A DNA stretch of 64,000 nucleotides. Origin: Glycomyces amatae. Lineage in GTDB: Bacteria > Actinomycetota > Actinomycetes > Mycobacteriales > Micromonosporaceae. The stretch spans positions 1 to 64,000 of the forward strand of contig NZ_JAJLQZ010000023.1 in assembly GCF_020991375.1 (NCBI RefSeq). The letters run 5' to 3'. This document shows positions 15,566-40,930 of the stretch, piece by piece. A model generated the notes under the pieces. That model had not been told where the DNA came from and ran no database searches. It was given only the letters and a program-made list of their open reading frames with translations. Each line of letters opens with the position of its first letter. Position 1 is the first letter of the stretch. Made by a program: the position numbers and the translations under genes.

Positions 15566-15720
15566 TTTTGACATCCTCGCCGTCCTAAAGGACGGCGATT
15601 CCCGGCTCGGGCGCCGCTTGCGCGGCGCCGCTACGGGTGGGTTCCTCGTTCTGCCCCTCACGGGGATTTCCAGGTCTGCCAGGTCTCCCTGGTCTGACGT
15701 CCTGTCCAGAGGCGTTTAGG
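15566..15720 (-). ncRNA. Putative omega-RNA (reRNA) overlapping tnpB 3' end
   Basis: In TnpB elements the guide RNA is transcribed from the 3' end of tnpB through the right-end scaffold. Here the scaffold-like hairpin CGCCGTCC-TTTA-GGACGGCG (15578-15597) contains the tnpB stop codon. The adjoining flank reads AAAGACGGGTGTCGCTATG on the minus strand and would be the guide. The 5' limit is not visible. This is inferred from the known family architecture. Confidence 0.5.
15578..15597 (-). repeat. Right-end hairpin of TnpB element
   Basis: A perfect 8-bp stem with 4-nt loop (CGCCGTCC TTTA GGACGGCG), followed by AGGATGTCA, a sequence often seen at the ends of IS1341-type elements. It overlaps the last codons and stop of tnpB. 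Confidence 0.75.
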
Positions 15721-16874
15721 GTGTCCGAGCGCCCCTCGGCCACCATACGCTTGCCTTCACGGCGAATATTGATCTCGGCGTTCTGATCCCGGTCGTGCAC
15801 CGCTCCGCACCCGCACATCCAAGACCTGACCCTCAGGCCCTGAACTCCGGACGGCCCGTCCGAGACCCCGCACAACGAACACAACATGGTGGAGGGGAAG
15901 AACCGGTCGACCTTCACGAACGTCCGCCCCGCACGGGACGCCTTCGACTCCAGCCGGACCAAGAACATGCCGAACGCGGCGTCATGGATCGACTTCGCGT
16001 GCCTACCCCGTGCCAGGCCCTTGACATTGAGGTCTTCAACGTAGAGAGCTTGGTTCTCGCCCACCAACGTCTTCACCTGCTTGTCGATCCAATCAGACCG
16101 GGTGTGCTTGATCTTCTCGTGGACCTTCGCGACCCGAATCCGGGCTTTCGCCCGGTTGACCGAGCCCTTCGCCTTCCGGGCAAGAACCCGCTGCGCTTTC
16201 TTCAGCTTCCGCTCAAGCTTCCCGAAGAACTTCGGGTTCTCGATCACCTTCCCGCCGCGCAAGACCGCGAAATCCTTGAGCCCGAGGTCAATACCGGTCT
16301 CGGCCTCAGGATCGGCGAGCGGTTCGAGCAGGTCCGCACCATCATCCACGGCGACGACGAAACTGGCGTAGTACTTGCCCGTCGGGGTCTTGACGACCGT
16401 CACCGAGGACGGCGCGGACGGCAGCTCCCGCGACCACGCCACCCGCATGTCGCCGATCTTCGGCAGGCGCAGCCGACCGTTGTCGAGCACCCTGAACTTG
16501 GCGTTGCGGGTGAAGCGGATCGACTGGGCGTGCGTACGGCGTTTGAACCGCGGCGGGCCCATCCGCGCCCCGGCCCGCTTGCCTTTGATCGACGTGAAGA
16601 AGTTTCGGTACGCCCGGTCAGCGTCCGCGAGCGCCTGCTGGAGTATCGCGGCCGACACTTCGGCAAGCCATGCCCGTTCAGGGGTGCGCTTCGCCTCGGT
16701 GATCAACGCCTTCGACAAGACCGCCGTCGTCGGATACGGCAGCCCCTGCTCGTGCGCTTGCTTCCTCGCGGCCACCGCGTCGTTGAACACGACTCGAGCG
16801 GACCCGAATGCGCGCGCAAGCGACACCCGCTGCGGCGCTGTCGGATAGACCCGATACCGGTATCGAAGGAGCAC
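15585..16874 (-). CDS. tnpB: RNA-guided endonuclease TnpB
   Basis: A 429-aa TnpB, the transposon-encoded ancestor of Cas12 that cuts DNA matching its omega-RNA guide and helps retain the element. An N-terminal HTH/WED-like region (RYRVYPTAPQRVSLARAFG) is followed by the split RuvC nuclease: the RuvC-I Asp in TGIDLGLKDFAVL, the RuvC-II Glu in LYVEDLNVKGLARG and the RuvC-III Asp in HDRDQNAEINIRREG. The zinc-finger cysteines (CSLC and later CGC) lie between the last two. All catalytic residues are present, so it may be active. It starts with GTG at 16874. The stop codon lies inside the scaffold hairpin, as expected for a combined mRNA/guide RNA. There is no tnpA partner. Confidence 0.93.
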   Translation of the reverse strand: MLLRYRYRVYPTAPQRVSLARAFGSARVVFNDAVAARKQAHEQGLPYPTTAVLSKALITEAKRTPERAWLAEVSAAILQQALADADRAYRNFFTSIKGKRAGARMGPPRFKRRTHAQSIRFTRNAKFRVLDNGRLRLPKIGDMRVAWSRELPSAPSSVTVVKTPTGKYYASFVVAVDDGADLLEPLADPEAETGIDLGLKDFAVLRGGKVIENPKFFGKLERKLKKAQRVLARKAKGSVNRAKARIRVAKVHEKIKHTRSDWIDKQVKTLVGENQALYVEDLNVKGLARGRHAKSIHDAAFGMFLVRLESKASRAGRTFVKVDRFFPSTMLCSLCGVSDGPSGVQGLRVRSWMCGCGAVHDRDQNAEINIRREGKRMVAEGRSDTLNASGQDVRPGRPGRPGNPREGQNEEPTRSGAAQAAPEPGIAVL

Positions 16875-18752: not shown

Positions 18753-19043
18753 ACGAAGCGTGAGCATCCGCTCAAGGGCGAGTTCGACACCGGCGCGGCC
18801 CGCTGGGAGCGCACCACCCACGAGGACGGCACCCCGGCGGCCCTGGAGATCGGCTACGCCGACAACGGCCTGGTCGCCCTGCGCATGGCCGAGGACCCCG
18901 AGGGCGACATCCTCATCTACACCCCGGCCGAGTGGGAGGCCTTCGTCGAGGGCGTCCGCGACGGCGAGTTCGACCTCGAGACCTGGGACGACGAGCCCAT
19001 CGTCGAGGTCATCGAGGACGACGACGAGCCGGCGAAACGGTAA
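18750..19043 (+). CDS. DUF397-domain protein
   Basis: A 97-aa acidic cytosolic protein. Its core (GLVALRMAEDPEGDILIYTPAEWEAF, then VEGVRDGEFDLE) matches the C-terminal DUF397 signature of Actinobacteria (RDSKDPDG...L.FTPAEW.AF..GVK.GEFD), although the usual cysteine-containing N-terminal half is replaced. DUF397 genes usually sit beside a Scr1-type helix-turn-helix regulator, to which the small protein binds; no such partner is adjacent here, so it is an orphan. The leaderless start is supported by the -10 box. A very acidic tail EVIEDDDE closes the protein. Confidence 0.8.
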   Translation: MTKREHPLKGEFDTGAARWERTTHEDGTPAALEIGYADNGLVALRMAEDPEGDILIYTPAEWEAFVEGVRDGEFDLETWDDEPIVEVIEDDDEPAKR

Positions 19044-19390
19044 CCGCAAGGGCCGCAACCGAATACGAACTTCCGCGACCGTCCCGGGGCACCGTCCCGG
19101 GGCGGTCGCGCGCTGCGCGGCCCGGTTTCAGGGTCGGTGCGAACGTGCCAGGTTCAGAATCCGGGGCGCGGGGTGTATCCCATCGGACGCCGCGGCCTCT
19201 TCCCTGGTGAATGCCGTGATAACCGTCCAGCCCGTGGCGTTCGCGGCATTCCGGGCCCGAGTGCCTCCCGACCTGTCGGAACCCGCGTGTACCCCACGCG
19301 TTGCGACCGGCGGGGAGAATGGATCGCGAAGGATCCCCCTCCTCGCCGCACAACCGCATAACCCCCCGAGAGACAAGCAGAGGAGCTCCC
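19044..19390. other. 347-bp intergenic region before S8 protease
   Basis: Contains a hairpin after the DUF397 gene (GCGACCG and CGGTCGC arms around two copies of GTCCCGGGGC, 19076-19112). No gene or consensus promoter is evident; weak TA-containing hexamers near 19215 and 19350 are possible -10 boxes. Confidence 0.4.
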
Positions 19391-20938
19391 ATGCGATTGG
19401 TGTTCGCCGATCACGAACCCCATCTGAAGCCCAACCCCCGCCGCGACCACATGAGCGGCGTGCCCGAGCTGTCGTATTCCACTCTGGACCGCCACGGCGG
19501 CCGCGTCCTGGCCCCCGGCCAGGTCGTGCGCAGTCCTGGCGAGCCCGCGCCCGTCGGCACCGTCTACCGCTACGACCGTCTGCTCATCGACGAATCGGTC
19601 ATGCGCGACGAGGAGGCCCGAGACGCGCTCGAAGGCGCGGTCCTCCACAGCGGCATGAGACTCAAGAGCCACGCGGCCAGCGCGATCATCTCCGGTCAGG
19701 GCTCGTACCGCGTCCCGGTCTTCAGTAACCGCGGCGACCACGCGGCCGTCGACGCCTGGGCCTTGATTCAGCGCCTGCGCACCGACGCCGACGAGTCCGG
19801 CCTCTCCGCGGAGCTCATCGACAAGGTGCGCCTGGAGCACCTGATGATCTGCTCGAAGGGCGGGCCGAGCGTCGGCGGCGGTGAGCCACCCGTCGGCGAT
19901 CCGCGAGCGTTCTCGCTCGGCCGCATCCCGGTCGACATGGTCAACCCGATGCCGGACCGCAGGAAACGCGACCGGCGCCTACGAGTGGCCATTCTGGATA
20001 CCGGTGTTCCGCATCGACATCCGTCTTTCGACGTGTCCGACCGCTCCGAGGGGGAGGACACCTTCGTGGTGGTCGACCACGCCTTCCAGACCAAGATCGG
20101 CGAGCACTCCGACTCGCCCGCGCCGCCGCTCGACGACCCGTGGGAGGGGCCGGTCCATGAGCCGACGCTCATCGGCGAGGTCGCCAGCCACTTCGGCCAC
20201 GGCACGTTCATGACCGGGCTGCTCCGTCAGATGTCGCCGGACGTGCAGGTGTACTCGCTGCGAGTCGTCCACAACGACGGGCTGGCGTACGAGCACGAGG
20301 TCATCGGGGCGCTGCACCATGTCGCCGACCAGGTCGAGGCGGCTCGGGGCGGCGACGAGGAGGCGATCGGCGCCGATGTGGTGGTCCTGGCGATGGGCTA
20401 CGTCGATGAGAACCCTTACGACCAGCCGGGTGGCTGGATCGGAGACGCGGTCAACCGTCTCGCCGCTCTGGGCGTCCCGGTGGTCGCGGCGGCCGGGAAC
20501 CAGTCGTCGGATCGCCCCTTCTACCCGGCCGCGTTCGCGGCCCACGGGCAGTCCGAGACCAGCGCCCCGATCCTCAGCGTCGGTGCGCTCAACCCCAATC
20601 GCCACATCGCGATGTTCTCCAACGAGGGCCCGTGGGTCTCGTGCTACGCCACCGGGGCCGGGTTGGTGAGCACGTACCCGTGCGAGGCCAAGGGCTCGCG
20701 GATGCCCGACCGCCAAGCCAAGTCCACGATCTTGAACCGGCACCGCGAGAGCCACGACCCCGACGACTTCTCATCGGGGTTCGCCGTCTGGAGCGGCACT
20801 TCGTTCGCGGCGCCGTTGGCGGCGGCCTTCCTGGTGAACGCCATGGCCGAATCGGAGGCGATGACAGTGGGGGACGCGGCCCAGGCGTCGGCTCGTGCTC
20901 ACGAAGCGCTGAAGCGGTTGAAGAAACAGCTAGCCTGA
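19391..20938 (+). CDS. S8 family subtilisin-like serine protease, cytosolic
   Basis: A 515-aa protease. The triad is complete: Asp203 in VAILDTGVPH, His270 in FGHGTFMTG, Ser471 in SGTSFAAPL; AAAGNQSS supplies the oxyanion Asn. The first 200 residues are a separate domain without recognised homology, rich in Arg and Asp. No signal peptide or membrane helix is seen, so it should act inside the cell, unlike the T7SS mycosins. The ATG at 19391 follows a GAGGAG ribosome site. It is the first gene of a compact set with an ECF sigma factor, a small protein and a TPR-CHAT protease, the sigma start lying 5 bp after its stop. A role as processing or effector protease of that locus is inferred. The substrate is unknown. 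Confidence 0.9.
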   Translation: MRLVFADHEPHLKPNPRRDHMSGVPELSYSTLDRHGGRVLAPGQVVRSPGEPAPVGTVYRYDRLLIDESVMRDEEARDALEGAVLHSGMRLKSHAASAIISGQGSYRVPVFSNRGDHAAVDAWALIQRLRTDADESGLSAELIDKVRLEHLMICSKGGPSVGGGEPPVGDPRAFSLGRIPVDMVNPMPDRRKRDRRLRVAILDTGVPHRHPSFDVSDRSEGEDTFVVVDHAFQTKIGEHSDSPAPPLDDPWEGPVHEPTLIGEVASHFGHGTFMTGLLRQMSPDVQVYSLRVVHNDGLAYEHEVIGALHHVADQVEAARGGDEEAIGADVVVLAMGYVDENPYDQPGGWIGDAVNRLAALGVPVVAAAGNQSSDRPFYPAAFAAHGQSETSAPILSVGALNPNRHIAMFSNEGPWVSCYATGAGLVSTYPCEAKGSRMPDRQAKSTILNRHRESHDPDDFSSGFAVWSGTSFAAPLAAAFLVNAMAESEAMTVGDAAQASARAHEALKRLKKQLA

Positions 20939-20945
20939 AATCATG
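20931..20945 (+). promoter_or_regulatory. -10 box overlapping S8 stop codon, leaderless sigma start
   Basis: TAGCCT (20931-20936) lies over the last codons of the S8 gene and 6 nt before the ATG of the sigma factor at 20943, so the sigma gene may have its own leaderless transcript. Confidence 0.5.
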
Positions 20946-21560
20946 AATGCGACTTCGGCTCATTCGGTGGCCGCCGTGGATTACGACCGGCGCGCGCAGC
21001 TCTATCTCGCTGCGCGCGCCGGGGACGGCGCTGCGCAGCAGACCCTCGTCGTGGAGCTCAACGAGCTCCTCTGGCGAGCGGCCCGCCGCACCGGGCTGGA
21101 CAGGGAGACCGCTTCGGACGTCGTTCAGACGGCTTGGCTCCGCCTGTGGCACATCGAAAAAGAGCTGGAGCAACCTCGTGCGCTGACCAAGTGGTTGCTC
21201 ACCACGGTCAGCCGCGAGGCCTGGAAGCAGATCGGCCACCACCGGCGCGAGGTCGTCGCCGATCCGATCGACCTCAGGGAGGAGCAGGCCACCGAGAGCG
21301 TCGAGGACCGCCTCGTCCGCGACGCCGAGTGTGAAGCCGTGCGCCGCGCCTTCCTTGCCCAGCCAGAGCGGTGTCGGCGGCTGCTCGCCTTCGTGGCGAC
21401 GGTCTCCCGGCCCGATTACGACGTCATCGCCGGGGCACTCGGGATGAAGAGGGGGAGCATCGGACCCACCCGGGGCCGTTGCTTGGACAAACTGAGGAGG
21501 ACGCTCCTGGACGATCCGTCCTGGAGCGGAGGTGAGGAGCGGGATGAAGATGCGACCTGA
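20943..21560 (+). CDS. ECF-type RNA polymerase sigma factor
   Basis: A 205-aa protein of sigma-70 family size and layout typical of ECF factors. Region 2 includes RETASDVVQTAWLRLW and WLLTTVSREAWKQ; region 4 is the C-terminal helix-turn-helix around YDVIAGALGMKRGSIGPTRGRCLDKLRR. It directs RNA polymerase to a dedicated promoter set. It lies between the S8 protease and a small protein whose start overlaps its end by 17 bp, the usual position of an anti-sigma factor. No zinc anti-sigma motif occurs in the neighbour, so control by proteolysis through the local S8 or CHAT protease is a reasonable inference. Its target promoters are unknown. Confidence 0.9.
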   Translation: MNATSAHSVAAVDYDRRAQLYLAARAGDGAAQQTLVVELNELLWRAARRTGLDRETASDVVQTAWLRLWHIEKELEQPRALTKWLLTTVSREAWKQIGHHRREVVADPIDLREEQATESVEDRLVRDAECEAVRRAFLAQPERCRRLLAFVATVSRPDYDVIAGALGMKRGSIGPTRGRCLDKLRRTLLDDPSWSGGEERDEDAT

Positions 21561-22080
21561 ATACGAGAATCAGGGTGAATTCGAGTCATTGGACTCCTGC
21601 GATGAGCGGATTCTCTCGGTGATCAACGAACTGCACCACCGGGACGATCCGATGCCGGAGGACCTCAACGAGCGGGTGCAGTTCATCCTCGAACTCGAAG
21701 CGGAGCTCGACGCCCGCGTGGCGAGGGTGTCGCGTGAGAACGAACTGGTGCTCATGAGGGGCGACGCCGACCTGGTGGTGGGGCAGAACGATCCCGCATC
21801 GGTCACCTTCGACTGCGAGTCGGTCACCGTGATGGTGACGCCGAGGCCCGCGGCGCTCCGGGAGCTGCGGCTCGACGGATGGATAGGTCCCGAGGGGAGC
21901 TACGAGGTCGAACTCAGGAGTCCGGAGGGCTCGCGGAGGGCCTCCACCGACGAGACCGGTCGGTTCGTACTCGAAGGCCTCCCCGACGGGCAGATGTTCC
22001 AATTGGTGATCCGGCCGGACGAGACACTGCAGCGGGAAGGGCTACCGGCGGTCGTCGTCACGCCGGCGGTGCGGCTGTAG
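21544..22080 (+). CDS. Small protein with Carboxypeptidase-regulatory-like domain; candidate sigma regulator
   Basis: A 178-aa acidic protein of unknown function. The N-terminal helical part (DERILSVINELHHRDDPMPE then LNERVQFILELEAELDARVA) may bind a partner. The C-terminal half is a beta-sandwich-like segment with TDETGRFVLEGLPDGQMFQL, the pattern of Carboxypeptidase-regulatory/transthyretin-like domains. The start ATG at 21544 follows GGAGGTGAGGAG and overlaps the sigma gene by 17 bp, so translation is coupled. Its position suggests an anti-sigma factor or the protease substrate that controls the sigma factor. No transmembrane helix or HxxxCxxC zinc motif is seen. Function is inference from context. 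Confidence 0.72.
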   Translation: MKMRPEYENQGEFESLDSCDERILSVINELHHRDDPMPEDLNERVQFILELEAELDARVARVSRENELVLMRGDADLVVGQNDPASVTFDCESVTVMVTPRPAALRELRLDGWIGPEGSYEVELRSPEGSRRASTDETGRFVLEGLPDGQMFQLVIRPDETLQREGLPAVVVTPAVRL

Positions 22081-22093
22081 CATGTGAAGAATG
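22078..22093 (+). promoter_or_regulatory. -10 box overlapping stop codon, leaderless CHAT start
   Basis: TAGCAT (22078-22083) begins with the stop codon of the preceding gene and lies 7 nt before the ATG at 22091, repeating the arrangement at the sigma gene. Confidence 0.45.
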
Positions 22094-24604
22094 CTTCAAC
22101 GTGCCTGGAGGTTGTTCTCCCGTGGACACCGGCTCCAGAGCAGACTGCGAATCGTTGAAGCCGCCGCGGTGTTCGACGAGGCGTTGCGCCTCTTGGGATG
22201 GGACCCCGCGAATCCGCCGCCTCCGGGCACCGCTCGGGCGCGGCTCACGGCCCGGATTCTGAATTCCCGGGCGCTGACGTACACGTACTCGGGCGAGGCG
22301 CCGGCGGGATTGGCGCTGCTCCAGCAAGCCGTCCGATTCGTGGACGAGCGGGACCGCGGACTGCTGACGCATCAGCGAGGGCTCATCCTCCAGCAGAACG
22401 GGCGGCCAGTGGACGCACTGGCGCATTTCGATCGCGCGGAGCCCATGCTGGCCGAGCACGGCCCCGACTTCATCTATGCGGGGTTGTTCCTCAATCGGGC
22501 GAACACGTTGCGGGACCTGGGCGAACTCAGCAAAGGCCTCGAGAGCGCGAGGCGTGCGAGGGCATTGTTCGCAAAACTCGGTCGGCGCATCAACCAGATC
22601 AAAGCGCAGCATGTGGAGGCGCTGCTGCTGCTCGATCTCGGTGACGTGACCAAGGCCCTCGCCGAGTTCAAGGAAGTACGGGCCGAATACCGCGAGCACG
22701 CCCCCGAACTCGAGGCCTTCGTGCACAGCTCCAACGCGGATGCGCTTCTCTACGTGGGGATGTACCAGCAGGCGATCGACCACTGGGCTGAGGCGATCGC
22801 GGCCCTGCGACTCGCGGGGGACCACCGCAGCGCGGCGATCTTCGAGTTCTGGCGTGCGGTGACCGCATTCGAAAACGATCAGTTCGACCTCGCGAGCGAT
22901 TGGGCCGAGCGGGCGATGGACTCGCTCTACGAGCAGGGCAACGAACCGATGGCCTTCCTCGCCCGCCTGTTGATCCTCCAGGGCCAGTTCGACTCAGGGA
23001 AGGCCGGGCCGAACTTCGCGGACAAGGTCTCCCGACTGTGCGACGCACTCGAGCAGCGTGGATGGACCCTTCGCCTGAACCAGGCCAAGATCCTGGCCGC
23101 CCGGGCTCGGATCAAGGCAGGGGACCTCGACGACGTCGACGCCGTGCTCGACGAGGAACCGGGTGGGCCGGGCTATGAAGCGCTCGCCGAAGCCTTGGCC
23201 CGGCATCTCGCCAGGGCCGAGCTCGCCATGATTCGCAAGCAGGACCCGATGCCGGAACTCCAGACCGGTCTCGACCTGCTCGACGAGTACCGCATGACCT
23301 TCGGCTCGGTCGAGTTCCAGGCAGGGGTCTCCGCTCTGGGCGTCCAGCTGGCCAACCGGGGTTTGATCCACACCACGAACAACGGCTCTCCCGCCGAGAT
23401 GCTCTGGTGGGTCGAGCGGAGCAGGGCTCAGGGATTGCGCATCCCGCCCGTCAAGTCGGCGACCGACCCTGGAGCTAGAGAGGCGCTCGGCCGTCTCCGA
23501 CAGGCTCGGCGGCGGCTCTGGGACCTCCAAGTTCAAGGCGAGGAGAGCTCTGAGGAGTTCGCGCGCGTTCAGGTGCTCGAAGAGGAGATTCGCGCGTACG
23601 AACGAACCACGCCCGGCCCGGGGCAGCGGGCCGAGCGGATCGCTCCCGAGGACATCCATGATCTCGCCGAATCCCGCAACACCGTCGTGGTGAACCTCTA
23701 CGAAGCCGGCGGCGATATCCGCGCCATTCTCGCGGGAGGCAAGGGGCTCAAGCACGTTCGGCTCATGCCGCTCGATGCCGCCGCCGAACTCGGGCGCCGT
23801 CTCGGCGCGGACCTCGATGCCCTCGGAAAGCCCTTCCGCCTCCCGCCCCGTCTCCAAACGAGCGTCGAGGGATCGCTCCGCCGGAACGCCGCCGCCCTTG
23901 CTGAAGGAATCTGGGAGCCGATCGCCGATTACGTTGCCGACCGTCAAGTGGTCATCGTCCCGCACAGCCGATTGGCCTGGGTGCCCTGGCCGCTGCTCCC
24001 GCAGCTCCGAGGTCGCCCGGTCACGGTGTCGCCCTCCGCTGAGGCCTGGTGGCGGTCGGTTCACCGGAGCGCCGCCACGGGCCCTGCCCTCGTCGCCGCC
24101 GGCCCGGCGCTGTCGAGGGCAGGAGGCGAGATCGAAGTGATCGCCGGTCTCTATCCGGGCGCGCACCTCATCACCGCGGACAAGTCCGATCCCGAGCTCG
24201 TCCTCCGCGCCCTGGACGGCGCCTCGGTCGCGCACATCGCGGCGCACGGCCATCACGAGCCCGACAACGTCCTGTTCTCACGCCTCGACTTCGGACTGGG
24301 CCCGCTCAACGCCTACGAACTGCTCAGCCTCGACCAGCCGCCGAGCCATGTCGTCCTCTCCTCCTGCGACCTCGGCCGCTCCACGGTCGCGGTCGGCAAC
24401 GAGACGCTCGGGTTCACCGCGGCCCTCCTGCATGCGGGGACCTCCACCGTCGTCTCCAGTCTCGGCCGCGTCCCCGACGACATGGCCGCCGAGATGATGA
24501 TCGAGTACCACCAGCACTGCGCCAAGGGCGCGACCCCCGCCGAAGCGCTTGCCGCCGTGGGGGAGCGGCGTCCGTGGCACCCGTTCGTCGCGTTCGGCGC
24601 CTAA
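22091..24604 (+). CDS. TPR-CHAT caspase-like protease
   Basis: An 837-aa cytosolic protein. About the first 420 residues are tandem helical TPR-like repeats (for example ALAHFDRAEPMLAEHGPDF and AGLFLNRANTLRDLGELSKG), suited to sensing a partner. A charged linker is followed by a C-terminal CHAT domain (about 540-837), related to caspases and separases. The catalytic pair is present: His719 in HIAAHGHHEP and Cys759 in VVLSSCDLG, with the usual PSHVVLSS strand and an LGFTAALLHAGTSTVV helix-strand after it. CHAT proteases cleave specific partners in conflict and cell-death systems, such as Csx29 of type III-E CRISPR. Here it closes the S8/sigma/small-protein cluster. Substrate and trigger are unknown. 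Base composition is slightly less GC-rich than the housekeeping genes. Confidence 0.93.
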   Translation: MLQRAWRLFSRGHRLQSRLRIVEAAAVFDEALRLLGWDPANPPPPGTARARLTARILNSRALTYTYSGEAPAGLALLQQAVRFVDERDRGLLTHQRGLILQQNGRPVDALAHFDRAEPMLAEHGPDFIYAGLFLNRANTLRDLGELSKGLESARRARALFAKLGRRINQIKAQHVEALLLLDLGDVTKALAEFKEVRAEYREHAPELEAFVHSSNADALLYVGMYQQAIDHWAEAIAALRLAGDHRSAAIFEFWRAVTAFENDQFDLASDWAERAMDSLYEQGNEPMAFLARLLILQGQFDSGKAGPNFADKVSRLCDALEQRGWTLRLNQAKILAARARIKAGDLDDVDAVLDEEPGGPGYEALAEALARHLARAELAMIRKQDPMPELQTGLDLLDEYRMTFGSVEFQAGVSALGVQLANRGLIHTTNNGSPAEMLWWVERSRAQGLRIPPVKSATDPGAREALGRLRQARRRLWDLQVQGEESSEEFARVQVLEEEIRAYERTTPGPGQRAERIAPEDIHDLAESRNTVVVNLYEAGGDIRAILAGGKGLKHVRLMPLDAAAELGRRLGADLDALGKPFRLPPRLQTSVEGSLRRNAAALAEGIWEPIADYVADRQVVIVPHSRLAWVPWPLLPQLRGRPVTVSPSAEAWWRSVHRSAATGPALVAAGPALSRAGGEIEVIAGLYPGAHLITADKSDPELVLRALDGASVAHIAAHGHHEPDNVLFSRLDFGLGPLNAYELLSLDQPPSHVVLSSCDLGRSTVAVGNETLGFTAALLHAGTSTVVSSLGRVPDDMAAEMMIEYHQHCAKGATPAEALAAVGERRPWHPFVAFGA

Positions 24605-24647
24605 ACTCGGACAAGCCCCCCTGTACGAGGAAAGGCCCGCCCCCGTG
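24602..24647 (+). promoter_or_regulatory. Possible promoter and displaced start of MFS gene
   Basis: TAAACT (24602-24607) overlaps the CHAT stop codon. A GTG at 24645 opens a frame that ends TGA at 24669-24671, overlapping the MFS ATG. With one more C in the C run at 24655-24659 the GTG would join the MFS frame and read MTDAPLPALMFRNPD. Confidence 0.4.
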
Positions 24648-24670
24648 ACCGACGCCCCCTGCCCGCGCTG

Positions 24671-25909
24671 ATGTTCCGCAACCCCGACCACCGCCTCCTG
24701 CTCATCTCGGTCGCCTCCAGCCAGGTCGGCCTCCAGATCGCGTACTTCTCGGTCTCGATCATCGCCGTCGTCGTCCTCAAGCTCGGCGAGGCGCAGATCG
24801 GGATCCTCAACGCCATGGACCAGATCGCCCTGGTCGTGTTCGGCCTCCTGGTCGGCGCCTGGGTCGACCGGATGCGCCGCAAGCCGATCATCGTCGTCAG
24901 CGAGACGGTCCGGGCGCTGGTGCTGCTGAGCGTCCCGGTCGCCTGGATGCTCGACTCGCTCGTCATGTGGCACATGTACGCGGTGATGTTCCTGCTCGGT
25001 CTCGCCTCGGTGTTCTTCGACGTGGCGCAGGCCAGCTACATCCCGATGCTCATCGACAACGACCGGCTCGCGGGGGCCAACTCCCGCATCCAGGGGCTCC
25101 GGTCCGCGTCCGACACGGGCGGCCCGCTCGCGGCCGGGCCATTGGTCTCGCTGCTCACCGCCCCGATCGCCATCGCGGCCGCGGTCGCGGGCTTCGCGGT
25201 GTCGGCGTTCAGCTTGCGGCGCATCCGGTTCCAGGAGGCCGAGCCGGTCCGCCGGGAGAAGCCGAACCTCAGGGCCGAGATCGCGCAGGGGGTCAGGTTC
25301 ATCCTCAAGGACCCGATCATCCGGACCGTGGCGTTCGCGAGCGCCTGGTGCAACCTGTCGGTGGGCGCGTTCCAGGCGATGCTCGTCGTGTTCCTGATCC
25401 GGGACGCGGAGCAGGCCAGCGCGGTCGTGGGCCTGATCCTCGCCGGATCCGGGATCGGCGGCGTGCTCGGGGCGATGCTGGTCGGGAAGATCTCGGCGAA
25501 GGCGGGGATGGGTCCGACAGCGCTGGTCGCGCTGGCGCTCTCGGGGCCGGGCATGGCGGTCGTGGCCGCCTCGGGACCGGGCTGGGGCGCGGCCCTCGCC
25601 TTCCTCGGGCAGATCCTGTACGTCGCGTCGATCGTGGTGTTCAACGTGAACGTCGTGAGCTACCGGCAGGCGATCACGCCGGACCCGATCCAGGGACGCG
25701 TCAACGCCACGCAGCGGGTGATCACCTGGGGTTCGATGGCGGTCGGCTCGATCCTGGGCGGCTTCGCGGGCGAGGCCATCGGCGCCCGGTACGTGCTGCT
25801 CATCGCCGCAGGGATGCTGTTCGCCGGGTGCCTCGTCCTGCTGCGGACCCCGATCCGCACCCTCAAGGAGCTCCCCGAGGAGGGCACCGGGCTGCGGGAA
25901 GTCCACTGA
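24671..25909 (+). CDS. MFS transporter
   Basis: A 412-aa inner-membrane protein of the major facilitator superfamily with about twelve hydrophobic helices. The loop 2-3 signature is seen as VGAWVDRMRRKPIIVV. Helix 4/5 sequence (MFLLGLASVFFDVAQASYIPMLI) and NRINATQR-like QGRVNATQRVITWG resemble the MFS_3 (enterobactin exporter/tetracycline-type) group, so efflux of a small molecule is likely; the substrate is unknown. The start is uncertain: the ATG at 24671 lacks a ribosome site, and an upstream GTG is out of frame by one base within a C run, which may be a sequencing error. It follows the CHAT gene by 66 bp on the same strand; a link to that locus is not established. Confidence 0.87.
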   Translation: MFRNPDHRLLLISVASSQVGLQIAYFSVSIIAVVVLKLGEAQIGILNAMDQIALVVFGLLVGAWVDRMRRKPIIVVSETVRALVLLSVPVAWMLDSLVMWHMYAVMFLLGLASVFFDVAQASYIPMLIDNDRLAGANSRIQGLRSASDTGGPLAAGPLVSLLTAPIAIAAAVAGFAVSAFSLRRIRFQEAEPVRREKPNLRAEIAQGVRFILKDPIIRTVAFASAWCNLSVGAFQAMLVVFLIRDAEQASAVVGLILAGSGIGGVLGAMLVGKISAKAGMGPTALVALALSGPGMAVVAASGPGWGAALAFLGQILYVASIVVFNVNVVSYRQAITPDPIQGRVNATQRVITWGSMAVGSILGGFAGEAIGARYVLLIAAGMLFAGCLVLLRTPIRTLKELPEEGTGLREVH

Positions 25910-25941: not shown

Positions 25942-26361
25942 ACGTGGGATCTTGACGCACCCGGCGTGCTCCGCCTCCCCTCCGGCCGCCTGGTCCGCGG
26001 GCGCGGGCTCGGCAGGCCGCTGCCGGAGGGGCCGAAGCCGGAGTTCGCGCTGTACCTGTACGGGAAGGAGCCGCCGGCGGTCGAGTGGGAGTCGCAGTGG
26101 GTGCGGTGGCCGGACTTCCGGCTCCCCGCCGACAAGCCCGCGTTCGCGGCCGCGCTCCGCGAGGCGTGGCAGCGCACCGAGACCGAGCGGGTGGAGCTCG
26201 CCTGCCACGGCGGCAACGGCCGCACCGGCACGGCGCTGGCGTGCATGGCGGTCCTCGACGGCGTCCCGGCGGACGAGGCGGTCGCCTACGTGCGCGCCGG
26301 CTACTCGCCGCGAGCGGTGGAGACCCCCTGGCAGAAGCGCTTCGTCAGCCGCTTCGGCTGA
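25939..26361 (+). CDS. Protein-tyrosine-phosphatase-like protein
   Basis: A 140-aa cytosolic protein. It has the CX5R phosphatase loop as C89-HGGNG-R95 followed by Thr, and a WPD general-acid loop (WPDF, Asp59), so the cysteine-dependent phosphatase chemistry is intact. The protein is shorter than classical tyrosine phosphatases and fits the bacterial dual-specificity-like families. The substrate is unknown; phospho-Tyr or phosphoinositide are options. Leaderless start. It is convergent with the Fic gene, the stops lying only 22 bp apart. Confidence 0.8.
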   Translation: MTWDLDAPGVLRLPSGRLVRGRGLGRPLPEGPKPEFALYLYGKEPPAVEWESQWVRWPDFRLPADKPAFAAALREAWQRTETERVELACHGGNGRTGTALACMAVLDGVPADEAVAYVRAGYSPRAVETPWQKRFVSRFG

Positions 26362-26383: not shown

Positions 26384-27583
26384 CTATTCCCAGCTGCTCG
26401 CGCGAGTCAGGACCTTCATGACCTCAGGTGCCTGGTACTGGTGGCGGTACTTGCCGGTGAGTTTTTCCAACGCTCCGATGTCGACGAGCTGGTTGACGGC
26501 GTTGGCAATGCCTTGCGAGGTGGCCTTGTTGAGTCGTTTCGCCAGGGAAGGGACGGTGAAGCGGGGATACCCCGTCAGACTGCTCGCGATGTCCCGGGCC
26601 AGCCCGCTCCGAGGCAACAGGGTCTGGATCCGTTCCTGGTAGAGGCCTTGAAGCTGCAAGAGGTCCTCGACTCGGGAACGCGTGTCTTCGGCCGCAGCGG
26701 CGAGTCCGGAACTGAAGAAGCGGACCCAGGGGTCCCATTCGCCTTTGGCGGAGACGCTGTAAAGACGTTCTTGGTATTCATCCCGGTGGTCTTCGAACCA
26801 AGGCGAGACGCTCAGCAGCGGCTGTCTCAGTGCTCCATGGGTAATGAGCTGGAGGACGATGAGCATCCGCCCGATGCGGCCGTTGCCGTCTGCGAACGGG
26901 TGCAGCGTCTCGAACTGGTAGTGCCCCATCGCCGCCGAGACCACGGGATCGCAGTCACTGTCTTTTTTGACCCAGTCCACGAGGTCCTGCACCGCGGCGC
27001 GCAGTTCGATGCCGGGCGGCATCGGAATGAAGCGGGCCGATTCGATCGAGGAGCCGCCGTTCCCGATGGCGACCTGGATCGTTCGCAGACGGCCGGGGTC
27101 GCGCCGTTCCGACGGGGTGTCGCGGACCAGTGTCCGCTGCGCCTCCTCCAGCAACCCGACCGTGATCGCATGGCCGTCCTCGATGAGTGCGAACGCCTCT
27201 TCGGCGGCGTACACGTAGTTGAGGATCTCGATCAGCGCGGTGCCGAGTGGGCTGTTCTCATCGGGCTCTTCGTCGTCGGAGAGCACGCGTTCGAGCGGGG
27301 CGAAGGTCCCCTCCAGCGCCGAGGTGCTCTGCGCCTCTCGGCGGAGCGTCGGCCTTCGCAGAAGTCCCGGATTGGGAATCTGCAACGACGCCTGGTCGAG
27401 GCGGCCGAGTGCCCGGTTCGCACGGGAGACTTCCTGCCAGGTGCGCTGCTGAAGTTCGATCGGGGTGCCGAGTGGCGCGGGGACGAACGCCATGTGTTGG
27501 AACGGTCGACCGATGCGACCGTCAGTGCCGGTGATCGGGGTCAGATGACCGGTTGGACTTTGCGCGAACACATTCAGATCCAC
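26384..27583 (-). CDS. Fic family AMPylase with inhibitory helix and winged helix
   Basis: A 399-aa Fic protein, expected to transfer AMP (or another nucleotide part) from ATP to hydroxyl side chains of target proteins. The catalytic motif H228-PFADGNGRIGR is complete. The N-terminal inhibitory motif [S/T]xxxE[G/N] is present as T87-SAL-E91-G92, so it is a class II, self-inhibited enzyme. A Fic_N-like domain precedes the core, and the C-terminal 60 or so residues form a winged helix (FTVPSLAKRLNKATSQGIANAV). The GTG start at 27583 is 7 nt downstream of TAAGAT, indicating a leaderless mRNA. Palindromes of TTGAGA half-sites immediately upstream suggest autoregulation through the winged helix. 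The target protein is unknown. Confidence 0.93.
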   Translation of the reverse strand: MDLNVFAQSPTGHLTPITGTDGRIGRPFQHMAFVPAPLGTPIELQQRTWQEVSRANRALGRLDQASLQIPNPGLLRRPTLRREAQSTSALEGTFAPLERVLSDDEEPDENSPLGTALIEILNYVYAAEEAFALIEDGHAITVGLLEEAQRTLVRDTPSERRDPGRLRTIQVAIGNGGSSIESARFIPMPPGIELRAAVQDLVDWVKKDSDCDPVVSAAMGHYQFETLHPFADGNGRIGRMLIVLQLITHGALRQPLLSVSPWFEDHRDEYQERLYSVSAKGEWDPWVRFFSSGLAAAAEDTRSRVEDLLQLQGLYQERIQTLLPRSGLARDIASSLTGYPRFTVPSLAKRLNKATSQGIANAVNQLVDIGALEKLTGKYRHQYQAPEVMKVLTRASSWE

Positions 27584-39010: not shown

Positions 39011-40930
39011 GTGGTGTATGACCAGAACCGGCCGGATGAGCCGTCGCGCCCGAGCGGAGAGGAGCGGACCTCTCGCAGGCGCATCGGCAGGTCCTGGGGC
39101 CCGCCCGCCGAGGAGGCCCCCGAGGCCCCCGAGGAGGCGCGCCAGGGGATGGCCCAGCCGCCTGAGCAGTACCGGTTCGACCCGGACCGCGGGCGCCGCC
39201 ACCGCTACAGCGAGGACCCGACCGGGCAGGTCCCGAACGTGCCGGTCGAGATCGCCGAGACCGGGCCGATGGTCCCGGCCACCAGGCGCCCCTCGCCCGG
39301 CGAGCAGTTCGCCCCGCTCCCCGCGGCCCCCGAGACCCCGCAAGGCCCCCAAGGATTCCCGAACGACCCGAACCAGCAGCCCCAGCCTCCGCAGCAGCCG
39401 CCGTCGCCGTTCGCACCGCCGGGTGCGAACCATGAGCGCAGTGCGCCGCCGGGTGCGAACCATGAGCGCAGTGCGCCGCCGGGTGCGAACCATGAGCGCA
39501 GTGCGCCGCCGGGCGCGAACCATGAGCGCAGTGCGCCGCCGGGTGCGAACCATGAGCGCAGTGCGCCGCCGGGCGCGAACCAGGAGTTCGGCGCCCCGAC
39601 CGCGAACCACGAGCAGGCCACGCCCCCGCCGCAGCAGCACCTGAGCGCGCCGCAGGACTTCGGCGCCCCCCAGCAGCACCCCGGCTACAGCGCCCCGCCC
39701 GCGCCCGGCGACTACGCCCAGCAGCAGGGCCCCCCGCACCCGGGACCGAACCAGGAGTTCGGCGCGCCGGGCGCGAACCACGAGTACAGCGCCCCTAACC
39801 CCGAGCACGGCGCCCCGCAGCACTTCAGCGCCCCGCCCCAGGCCGGCGCGATGCCGAGCGCGCCCCCCGCCAACCCGGCGTTCGCCACACCCGCCCCGGG
39901 CCAGGACCGCCCCCTCCCTCCGACGCCGCCGGAGCCGCCCGCCGCGCCTGAGCCGCCCCAGCAGTACTCGCAGCCCGCGCCGCAGCACACCGGCCCCATC
40001 GAGGTCCCGCAGCCGCCGGCGCAGCAGGCCCCGCCCGTGCCGCCCACCCCGGCGGCCCCCGGGCCCATCCCCGTCGGCGAGCAGCAGACCGACCAGTTCC
40101 CGATCGTCCAGCGCCAGCCGCTCACCGAGGTGTCGCCCGCGGCCGTCCCGAGCCCGCCCGTCACCGAGCAGGCCCCGCTGCGCACGGCCCCGGCGAACCG
40201 GCCGCCGCTCGCCGAGCCCACCCCTCCCGCGACCGTGGAGCAGCCCGGCCACCTGCCCGGCGCGCCCGGCCCGTCCGGGGGGAGCGACACCGAGTCCGAG
40301 CGCCTGGTCGACGCGGTCCGCCAGGTTCCCGGCGTCCGCGACGCGTTCCACGTGACCGCCCCCGACGGCGCCTCCAGCCTCCGGCTCGAGCTCGAAGAGG
40401 GCGTCGACCCCGACGAGGTCCACGCGGTCGTCTCCGCCGTCGTCGCCGAGCAGCGCGCGGTCGAGCCCGGCCCGCAGTCCTCGGACGAGCCCGGCCAGGA
40501 CATCAGCGCCCAGGTCGAGGCCCCCTCCACCGACGTCGAGGTCGCGCAGGTCGGCCCGGTCGAGCTGCGCCGCGTCGACATCGAGTCGGCCGGCCTCGAG
40601 GCCGAGGTCAGCGTCACGCTCTCCCTCGGCGGCGACGAGTCGACCGGGAAGGTCGCCGTCCCGCCCATCGACTGGCACATCCAGCACGCCGCCGCGGCGG
40701 CCACAGTGGAGGCGCTGCGCCCGCGGCTCGCCGCCGGCGACGTCCGCGTCGAGGTCGAGCACGCCTCGATCGTGCCGACCGGGCCGGTCAAGACCGCCGT
40801 CGTGGTCATCCTGTGGCTCGACGGCCAGGCCGTGCGGCGCCTCTCCGGCGCCGCCGTGGTCACCGCCGAACGTTCGCGCGCCGTGGTTTCGGCTACTTTG
40901 GGCGCACTCGCTGCCGAAGTGTCACACTAG
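39011..40930 (+). CDS. Pro-rich repeat protein with conserved C-terminal domain
   Basis: A 639-aa protein without signal peptide or membrane helix. Residues 1-60 are charged, about 60-420 are disordered and rich in Pro, Gln and Ala, including five perfect decapeptide repeats (PPGANHERSA type, about residues 137-186) and degenerate copies after them. The C-terminal 220 residues look folded, with two alpha/beta segments (SERLVDAVRQVPGVRDAFHV and DWHIQHAAAAATVEALRPRL) that resemble each other weakly. No known domain is recognised. AAGGAG lies 7-8 nt before the GTG start. The long disordered part suggests a scaffold or polar-growth role, but that is a guess. It is followed after 5 bp by the alpha/beta hydrolase gene. 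Confidence 0.8.
   Translation: MVYDQNRPDEPSRPSGEERTSRRRIGRSWGPPAEEAPEAPEEARQGMAQPPEQYRFDPDRGRRHRYSEDPTGQVPNVPVEIAETGPMVPATRRPSPGEQFAPLPAAPETPQGPQGFPNDPNQQPQPPQQPPSPFAPPGANHERSAPPGANHERSAPPGANHERSAPPGANHERSAPPGANHERSAPPGANQEFGAPTANHEQATPPPQQHLSAPQDFGAPQQHPGYSAPPAPGDYAQQQGPPHPGPNQEFGAPGANHEYSAPNPEHGAPQHFSAPPQAGAMPSAPPANPAFATPAPGQDRPLPPTPPEPPAAPEPPQQYSQPAPQHTGPIEVPQPPAQQAPPVPPTPAAPGPIPVGEQQTDQFPIVQRQPLTEVSPAAVPSPPVTEQAPLRTAPANRPPLAEPTPPATVEQPGHLPGAPGPSGGSDTESERLVDAVRQVPGVRDAFHVTAPDGASSLRLELEEGVDPDEVHAVVSAVVAEQRAVEPGPQSSDEPGQDISAQVEAPSTDVEVAQVGPVELRRVDIESAGLEAEVSVTLSLGGDESTGKVAVPPIDWHIQHAAAAATVEALRPRLAAGDVRVEVEHASIVPTGPVKTAVVVILWLDGQAVRRLSGAAVVTAERSRAVVSATLGALAAEVSH
39421..39580 (+). repeat. 30-bp coding tandem repeats
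   Basis: Five 30-bp units begin at 39421, 39451, 39481, 39511 and 39541 (GGGYGCGAACCATGAGCGCAG...), with a partial sixth. They differ only by T/C in the fourth base, which is silent. Near identity indicates recent expansion. Confidence 0.92.

Follow-up and report, generated by a model that had tools for sequence, protein, structure and literature searches.

A conserved actinobacterial gene set of an ECF sigma factor, a small protein and two proteases, proposed as a CRISPR-independent sigma switch

Gene organization of the locus

The first 64,000 nucleotides of contig NZ_JAJLQZ010000023.1 from Glycomyces amatae (assembly GCF_020991375.1; hereafter the window) contain a compact locus of four consecutive plus-strand genes encoding two proteases, an extracytoplasmic function (ECF) sigma factor and a small protein. 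The first gene (19391..20938) encodes a 515-aa S8 subtilisin-like peptidase (78.6 bits against Pfam), in which a conserved N-terminal domain and a variable linker precede the catalytic domain housing D203, H270, N370 and S471. The second (20943..21560) encodes an ECF-type sigma factor of 205 aa, assigned to group ECF54 by genetic context, which scored 31.1 bits against PF04542 Sigma70_r2 (cut-off 24) and 51.0 bits against the NCBIfam sigma70-ECF model TIGR02937 (cut-off 42.9) and is thus an ECF sigma factor by family score. Its open reading frame (ORF) shares 17 nt with that of the small protein (178 aa; 21544..22080), the proposed anti-sigma factor and cleavage substrate, whose only Pfam match was a sub-threshold one to CarboxypepD_reg (15.4 bits, cut-off 32.3). 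The last gene (22091..24604) encodes an 837-aa separase- and Csx29-like TPR-CHAT protease with H719 and C759, which scored 100.4 bits against PF12770 and above cut-off with several TPR models.

Coordinates and Pfam and NCBIfam families agree with the four consecutive plus-strand genes described in an earlier interpretation made without database searches (the sequence-only reading). The catalytic residues that it had named were also correct. Among distinct relatives passing length and score filters, D203, H270 and S471 of the S8 protein were invariant (79/79), N370 was present in 78/79, and H719 and C759 of the CHAT protein were invariant in 93/93, as expected of the His/Cys dyad of clan CD.

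Conservation and arrangement of the module

Conservation was assessed in a sigma-anchored set of 80 named loci, the best 80 of 563 confirmed, in which the closest named relatives of the window sigma factor came from Glycomyces species. One locus (L127) was without a sigma call, and the remaining 79 were counted unconditioned on the presence of the small protein. The small protein adjoins the sigma factor in 76/79 loci, the CHAT gene lies within four genes in 74, the S8 gene in 73, and all four genes are found in 69; some of the misses are apparently due to contig ends or gene-caller failures. The sigma and small-protein genes overlap or abut in most loci; of the 76 adjacent pairs, 36 have a spacing of -4 nt. 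In every locus with calls for both, one small-protein gene directly adjoins the sigma gene; in L218 and L346 it lies on the other strand. At L214 (7596-8456) the two are joined in a single 286-aa ORF, which scored 42.0 bits with the sigma profile and 119.3 bits with the small-protein profile, adjoins the CHAT and S8 genes and retains the linker arginine described below.

A profile search identified the small protein in 59 of 249 genomes of the order; two of the 59 (G038 and G190) gave weak matches, with no sigma call in the opened stretch and no CHAT protein. In loci anchored on the small protein, the sigma factor was adjacent in 38 of 40, and of those 38 a CHAT gene was near in 29 and an S8 gene in 20. 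The CHAT protein was present in 89/249 genomes (E 1e-30 or better), 57 of which were among the 59 with the small protein (Fisher p 2e-30, kinship ignored). All of the other 32 CHAT genomes were opened, using small-protein profiles widened stepwise such that the second round included members from the first, and the small protein lay within the opened stretch in 29 (14/15 and 15/17). Altogether, 86 of the 89 genomes with CHAT in the order sample also encode the small protein; of the three misses, L207 and L341 have CHAT at the contig start and L338 holds only S8 and CHAT. The sequence-only reading had staked its proposal on conserved co-occurrence of the four families, and these counts clearly bear that out. 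Across the phylum sample the small protein was found in 46/396 genomes. Twenty distant regions were opened: the sigma factor adjoins the small protein in 18 and all four genes are present in 13, with orders and orientations shuffled. CHAT was present in 19 of the 22 small-protein-bearing genomes checked and undetected in G561, G508 and G479.

A nearby CHAT gene is missing from nine of the 38 small-anchored loci. In four such genomes where the sigma and small-protein pair stands alone (G132, G192, G162 and G204), the S8 and CHAT genes were found together elsewhere (4/4 opened), and in G014, where the small protein is on a different contig from CHAT, they were again together, giving 5/5 CHAT loci opened. 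The module therefore appears to consist of two natural halves, one of sigma factor and small protein and the other of CHAT and the second protease. The gene set is real and widely conserved across several actinobacterial families. Given this conservation and the promoter controls described below, the arrangement is not due to chance, and the four genes almost certainly form a coherent module. Two variant arrangements were also observed: L187 carries a duplicated module with two small-protein/CHAT/S8 sets and one sigma factor called, and L211 has a second small protein adjoining S8.

Structural features of the small protein

The predicted structure of the small protein (mean predicted local distance difference test score, pLDDT, 79.6) showed two helices (residues 18-34 and 41-65) and a seven-strand β-sandwich (87-158), with pLDDT below 50 at residues 57-76. 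Searching 38 members against Pfam at E up to 0.1 matched PF13620 CarboxypepD_reg in 34 and PF13715 in 13, whereas no member matched a catalytic carboxypeptidase model, so that only regulatory-like β domains are represented. A Csx30-like fold was considered and set aside, as the 50 fold matches listed were only weak and mostly FN3- or Ig-like sandwiches.

The poorly conserved linker between helices and sandwich contains one isolated conserved residue, Arg72, mostly followed by a small residue and then by residues of variable length. It was present in 122/128 aligned members, in 137/144 with added members and in 70/74 after 60% redundancy removal (3.91 bits). On the basis of this conservation and the low-pLDDT segment, the codons of Arg72-Gly73 (21757..21762, plus strand) mark the predicted scissile site. 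Adjacency, overlap and the natural fusion at L214 bear out the partnership with the sigma factor suggested by the sequence-only reading, and the small protein is probably the partner of the sigma factor.

The TPR-CHAT protease

The CHAT protein was modeled with a mean pLDDT of 91.3, the loop after C759 (762-771) being the only segment of at least three residues with pLDDT below 50. Foldseek ranked human separase-SCC1 first (E 3.7e-15) and the Cas7-11-Csx29-Csx30 complex fourth (E 1e-14), and the TPR parts also matched Rap peptide receptors (4gyo, E 2.8e-6). The score against the Csx29 family model NF041237 was 18.1 bits (cut-off 300), which places the protein outside that family. No Cas7-11-like protein was found among the ten flanking proteins, where a Cas12f-like hit is an OrfB/IS605 transposase; cas genes were not searched genome-wide. 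By our reading, none of the five direct-repeat families listed for the window resembles a repeat-spacer array, and the four module proteins gave no PADLOC match at E up to 0.01. The Csx29-like arrangement independent of clustered regularly interspaced short palindromic repeats (CRISPR) that the sequence-only reading proposed thus agrees with the lead fold matches, the family score and the neighborhood. Separase cuts after arginine, which occupies the P1 position. The linker arginine of the small protein and the separase-like fold together suggest that CHAT may cleave the small protein after Arg72, a proposal that could equally prove right or wrong.

The module promoter and its candidate regulon

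A predicted promoter, GTATC-N17-CTCTT, lies ahead of the module (19175..19201, plus strand) and is likely the sigma factor's own; the pattern has no other match in the window (expected 0.07). In an upstream alignment of 20 Glycomyces rows, GTATC was present in 17 and CTCTT in 16 of those 17, the other three rows stopping short of the site. The 5' leader between promoter and S8 start (19203..19275, plus strand) is strongly conserved in the same alignment, and no Rfam match at the gathering threshold was obtained for 18900-24900.

An unsupervised scan for 5-mer pairs in 76 non-redundant S8 upstreams recovered GTATC-N17-CTCCT in 14, compared with 4 for the top pair in each of five shuffles. Relaxing the motif to GTATC-N15..19-CTC(C/T) gave matches in 37/76 S8, 15/45 sigma and 3/11 small-protein upstreams vs 7/1183 control upstreams, which came from the same loci and were not thinned for redundancy (Fisher 1e-42 for S8 and 3e-18 for sigma, kinship ignored). 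Comparative genomics thus indicates that GTATC(A)-N17-CTC(C/T) precedes module operons across the phylum as their predicted promoter.

We also examined sites outside the module. In six Glycomyces genomes the module promoter, the source of the pattern, was found in 6/6. An extended motif, GTATC-N17-CTCYANTAC, occurred once in each of six genomes of one genus and in 0/4 others, with a control of 0; because it was derived from the split S8-CHAT loci, five of the six hits are necessarily those loci. The sixth hit (G235) is some 1.9 kb ahead of a CHAT gene. In 14 module genomes, including 12 selected for carrying the motif at their module, 66 sites matched GTATCA-N16/17-CTCCT vs 8 for the reversed pattern. 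These sites were positioned 10-250 nt ahead of a start in 51/66 cases (516/4200 for random positions) and inside genes in 7/66 (3468/4200). The 51 start-proximal sites comprise 11 module genes and 40 other genes, and a crude lipoprotein test was passed by seven of the 40 (L292 doubtful) vs 35/1775 in the background, while hydrophobic N-termini were present in 12/40 vs 295/1775. One lipoprotein family recurs as a target, with six genes in six genomes of one genus. Among 20 chosen targets, Pfam matches included YceI, DUF4232, DUF4333, VWD, a protein kinase, HSP70, a further S8 and Gmad2/LysM; two had sub-threshold hits only and ten were without a Pfam match. With lipoproteins, YceI and others partly of the envelope among its targets, the predicted regulon in some other genera may have an envelope-stress flavor.

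Variation in the second protease

Tandem arrays of at least three adjacent near-identical units were detected in 36 of 114 distinct module S8 proteins, with a period of six residues in 35 and seven in one; the same procedure detected no array in the window S8 protein (19391-20938). The arrays are located in the linker before the catalytic core, as in L096 (7106-8935), L137, L148, L120, L185, L196 and L203, and end 12-47 residues before the catalytic Asp in the 36 measurable arrays. Their units are clade specific (GETHGV, GYASGV, NPAYQG, PYWDPV and others), and an aromatic residue is present in 32 of 38. Between S8 array units, the proportions of synonymous (pS) and nonsynonymous (pN) differences were 0.439 and 0.040 (ratio 0.090). 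As a control, 21 of 1586 other proteins carried such repeats, with scattered periods, a pS of 0.318 and a pN of 0.054 (ratio 0.168), although this set contains the arrays of L143, L153, L053 and L062 and five CHAT proteins. Because the search favors alike units, pN is biased low in both sets, and more strongly in trimmed S8 array cores (pS 0.439, pN 0.016). Plain DNA slippage was considered as the source of the arrays and compared on these ratios, 0.090 for S8 and 0.168 for the control repeats. Arg178 of S8 (R in 72/79), before the catalytic core, was also considered as a second CHAT site, but it is a lead only and may belong to the first catalytic strand.

Six loci without S8 carry other protease families. 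Trypsin-like proteases with PFTE repeats are encoded in L143 (6843-8642) and L153 (6801-8642), with sub-threshold Trypsin_2 scores of 26.4 and 25.6 bits (cut-off 27.6), and one with PHYQ repeats in L197 (8832-10337), labeled from its GDSGS motif only. Papain-like proteases adjoining a protein with GxxDPNTPP-like or GWDPYxPP repeats are found in L053 (8291-10063), L062 (7979-9704) and L066; the label rests on PF00112 scores of 117 bits (L053) and 132 bits (L062) and, for L066, on sequence likeness alone. Upstream of the swapped protease, the promoter motif was detected in L143, L153 (102 nt) and L066 (254 nt) but not in L053, L062 or L197. Four further S8-less loci (L049, L054, L057 and L074) contain an ORF of 53-56 aa before the sigma gene that closes with one GxW[DE]P-like unit and has no promoter motif upstream. 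Most of the S8-less loci inspected showed neither an array nor such an ORF.

Proposed mechanism and alternatives

We propose that the module is a soluble, CRISPR-independent, protease-operated sigma switch, a reading to which we give an even chance. The small protein would hold the ECF sigma factor inactive via its N-terminal two-helix region. CHAT would take up a cytoplasmic signal via its TPR superhelix and cut the small protein after Arg72, separating the sigma-binding helices from the β-sandwich. The freed sigma factor would then transcribe its own operon from GTATC(A)-N17-CTC(C/T), presuming that this sigma uses that promoter, so that the switch would amplify itself. Judging from the pairing of S8 and CHAT, the second protease (S8 here) would be the partner of CHAT, acting as co-activator, in a second cut or in clean-up. 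A crude hydropathy test found no N-terminal hydrophobic segment in 79 S8, 112 sigma, 108 small-protein and 93 CHAT sequences, and a cytoplasmic switch fits this absence in all four families. As far as comparison of sequences and models can go, the data support the view that a separase-like protease, together with a partner protease, operates a sigma/anti-sigma pair. Of the mechanism suggested by the sequence-only reading, the CRISPR-independent Csx29-like arrangement and the sigma-small-protein pair are supported, while the cleavage and the release of the sigma factor are inferred steps.

Several observations weigh against this proposal. The predicted template modeling score of the small protein is only 0.54, no anti-sigma factor is among its 50 listed fold matches, and a search of 38 members with Pfam and NCBIfam models recovered no anti-sigma family at E up to 0.1. 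Arg72 is absent at its column in 7 of 144 members, one having Lys and three an Arg shortly after. Of the genomes in which CHAT was undetected, G508 retains the linker Arg (L194) and G561 does not (L195), and the residue could instead contact the sigma factor. The relaxed motif occurs in 0/61 CHAT upstreams and on the reverse strand in 20/193 operon upstreams; the reverse-strand hits may be due to divergent operons. A wider regulon was not found in the six Glycomyces genomes, where the pattern gave 8 hits vs 18 for its reverse and a shorter pattern 22 vs 41. Finally, internal hydrophobic windows are present in 27/79 S8 and 58/93 CHAT proteins.

The identity of the cutting enzyme is a first point of choice. 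S8 rather than CHAT might make the linker cut, with CHAT acting upstream, for instance by freeing S8 from its N-terminal domain in a two-step cascade. The catalytic residues of S8 are as invariant as those of CHAT, the two genes remain paired in split modules, and the conserved N-terminal domain and variable linker before the S8 core would suit such a release. Yet S8 is the less constant of the two in small-anchored loci (20/38 vs 29/38) and is replaced by other protease families in six loci, whereas CHAT, with its separase-like fold, is constant, and we consider the cascade unlikely.

The role of the small protein may also be read differently, as a co-factor or positive regulator for which Arg72 is a contact residue and not a cleavage site. 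The L214 fusion would also suit an intramolecular activator, and the Arg is kept in L194, whose genome has no detected CHAT. However, a residue conserved alone among poorly conserved, length-variable linker positions with pLDDT below 50 is easier to reconcile with a protease site than with a structural contact, which makes this role doubtful. An improbable option is that the proteases act on the sigma factor directly, with no anti-sigma factor, as passages of PMC8999054 propose for ECF54 from the same gene context. Against it, the small protein adjoins the sigma gene in 76/79 loci, usually overlaps it and is fused to it in L214, and the "carboxypeptidase" in print is probably this protein, given the non-catalytic CarboxypepD_reg matches of its members (34/38; none to a catalytic model). 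A phage-defense or suicide module with the proteases as effectors is likewise improbable. In its favor, CHAT proteases do work in type III CRISPR systems (as described in part of the literature), the operon apparently drives expression of its own proteases and a SoFic-like gene is nearby. Against it, the four proteins have no PADLOC match, the recurrent extra target in one genus is a lipoprotein family, and YceI, DUF4232 and DUF4333 are also targets.

The sigma switch operated by CHAT may have a further layer. A second protease of interchangeable family (S8, trypsin-like or papain-like) or a small stand-alone peptide gene might display a clade-specific short peptide, in most cases containing an aromatic residue and often repeated in numerous near-identical copies that purifying selection would maintain. 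The TPR part of CHAT would recognize this peptide as a tether or released ligand, arming CHAT to cut the anti-sigma factor at the linker Arg and start an autoamplifying sigma response. We regard this as a tentative possibility; if true, it would constitute a cytoplasmic, lineage-specific circuit from peptide to protease to transcription.

Relation to known systems

The ECF54 group was reportedly treated in Huang 2015 and Casas-Pastor 2021. Passages of PMC8999054 describe conserved carboxypeptidase, subtilase and CHAT proteins in the context of ECF54 and report, citing two papers, that control by proteolysis without an anti-sigma factor had been proposed. The same context, in which subtilase, carboxypeptidase(-like) and CHAT genes accompany the sigma factor, is seen in 69 of the 79 loci, and because this group is in print, the gene association itself is not new. 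The two accounts differ in that the published one has no anti-sigma factor, whereas the small protein here looks like a non-catalytic sigma partner, and the ECF54 passages of PMC8999054 do not mention a promoter, split modules or peptide arrays. Among the matches listed, no experiment on an ECF54-type gene set was found in the open-licence literature, in a search that was not targeted at peptide arrays. We take as new the small-protein architecture, the L214 fusion, the linker Arg, the likeness of CHAT to separase and Csx29, the S8-CHAT pairing kept in split modules and the operon promoter, as well as, in relatives and not in the window, the clade-specific tandem peptides and the swapped second protease.

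The best-known cases of ECF sigma factors freed by proteolysis involve membrane anti-sigma factors or belong to rare CRISPR-linked systems. The type III-E CASP/Craspase system, as far as described in passages of PMC10028731, likewise combines a TPR-CHAT protease of similar fold with a sigma inhibitor, an RpoE-like sigma factor and positive autoregulation, although Csx30 is 565 aa (PMC10028731) and the small protein here 178 aa. The module also differs in lacking a Csx29 family score and a Cas7-11-like neighbor among ten and in having an extra second protease. In SAVED-CHAT cascades the second protease is caspase-like. These cascades also employ a CHAT protease within a protease cascade, but their sensor is SAVED and they are found with CRISPR or cyclic-oligonucleotide-based antiphage signaling systems (CBASS) in the passages of PMC11229360. 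In CalpL/CalpT/CalpS a protease likewise cuts a soluble anti-sigma factor and frees an ECF sigma factor, but as presented in parts of PMC11229360 and PMC11417357 it is a Lon protease with a SAVED cyclic-nucleotide sensor and is CRISPR-coupled, in contrast to CHAT with TPR here. DdvA (PDB 8rot/8rw5) was matched at positions 689-819 of the CHAT profile (E 2.3e-7) and was also a fold match. Judging by title and molecule name, it links a CHAT domain to anti-sigma function within one transmembrane protein, whereas here CHAT, anti-sigma candidate and sigma factor are separate and apparently soluble. Eukaryotic separase-cohesin, the top fold match, resembles the module in that a helical superhelix and CHAT-type protease cut a disordered segment, with unrelated substrate and output. 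Part of PMC8195603 mentions that caspases are associated with ECF sigma factors in other conflict systems; PMC7159879 contains no word beginning with "chat".

The module would represent an apparently soluble version of such release, with a separase/Csx29-like protease, across actinobacterial families, with enough members for comparative genomics. It could account for where CHAT-sigma circuits were recruited from, namely a cellular background free of CRISPR. It also provides sharp handles in a single predicted scissile Arg, a single predicted promoter, the sigma-small-protein fusion and the swapped array-bearing proteases.

Neighboring features of the window

Downstream of the module, an MFS transporter (24671-25909) starts 66 nt past the CHAT gene and is followed by a short tyrosine-phosphatase-like ORF (25966-26361). 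A homologous transporter is also downstream of CHAT in L035, and other Glycomyces loci have genes of like size after CHAT (judged by size only). A Fic-domain protein (26384-27493) is a PADLOC SoFic match with 294.7 bits. Upstream, the OrfB/IS605 transposase (15585-16790; Cas12f-like according to PADLOC) is flanked by conserved neighbors and was not called at this position in L035-L037. Direct repeats of 30 bp (39383-39622) are located within an ORF called at 39011-40930.

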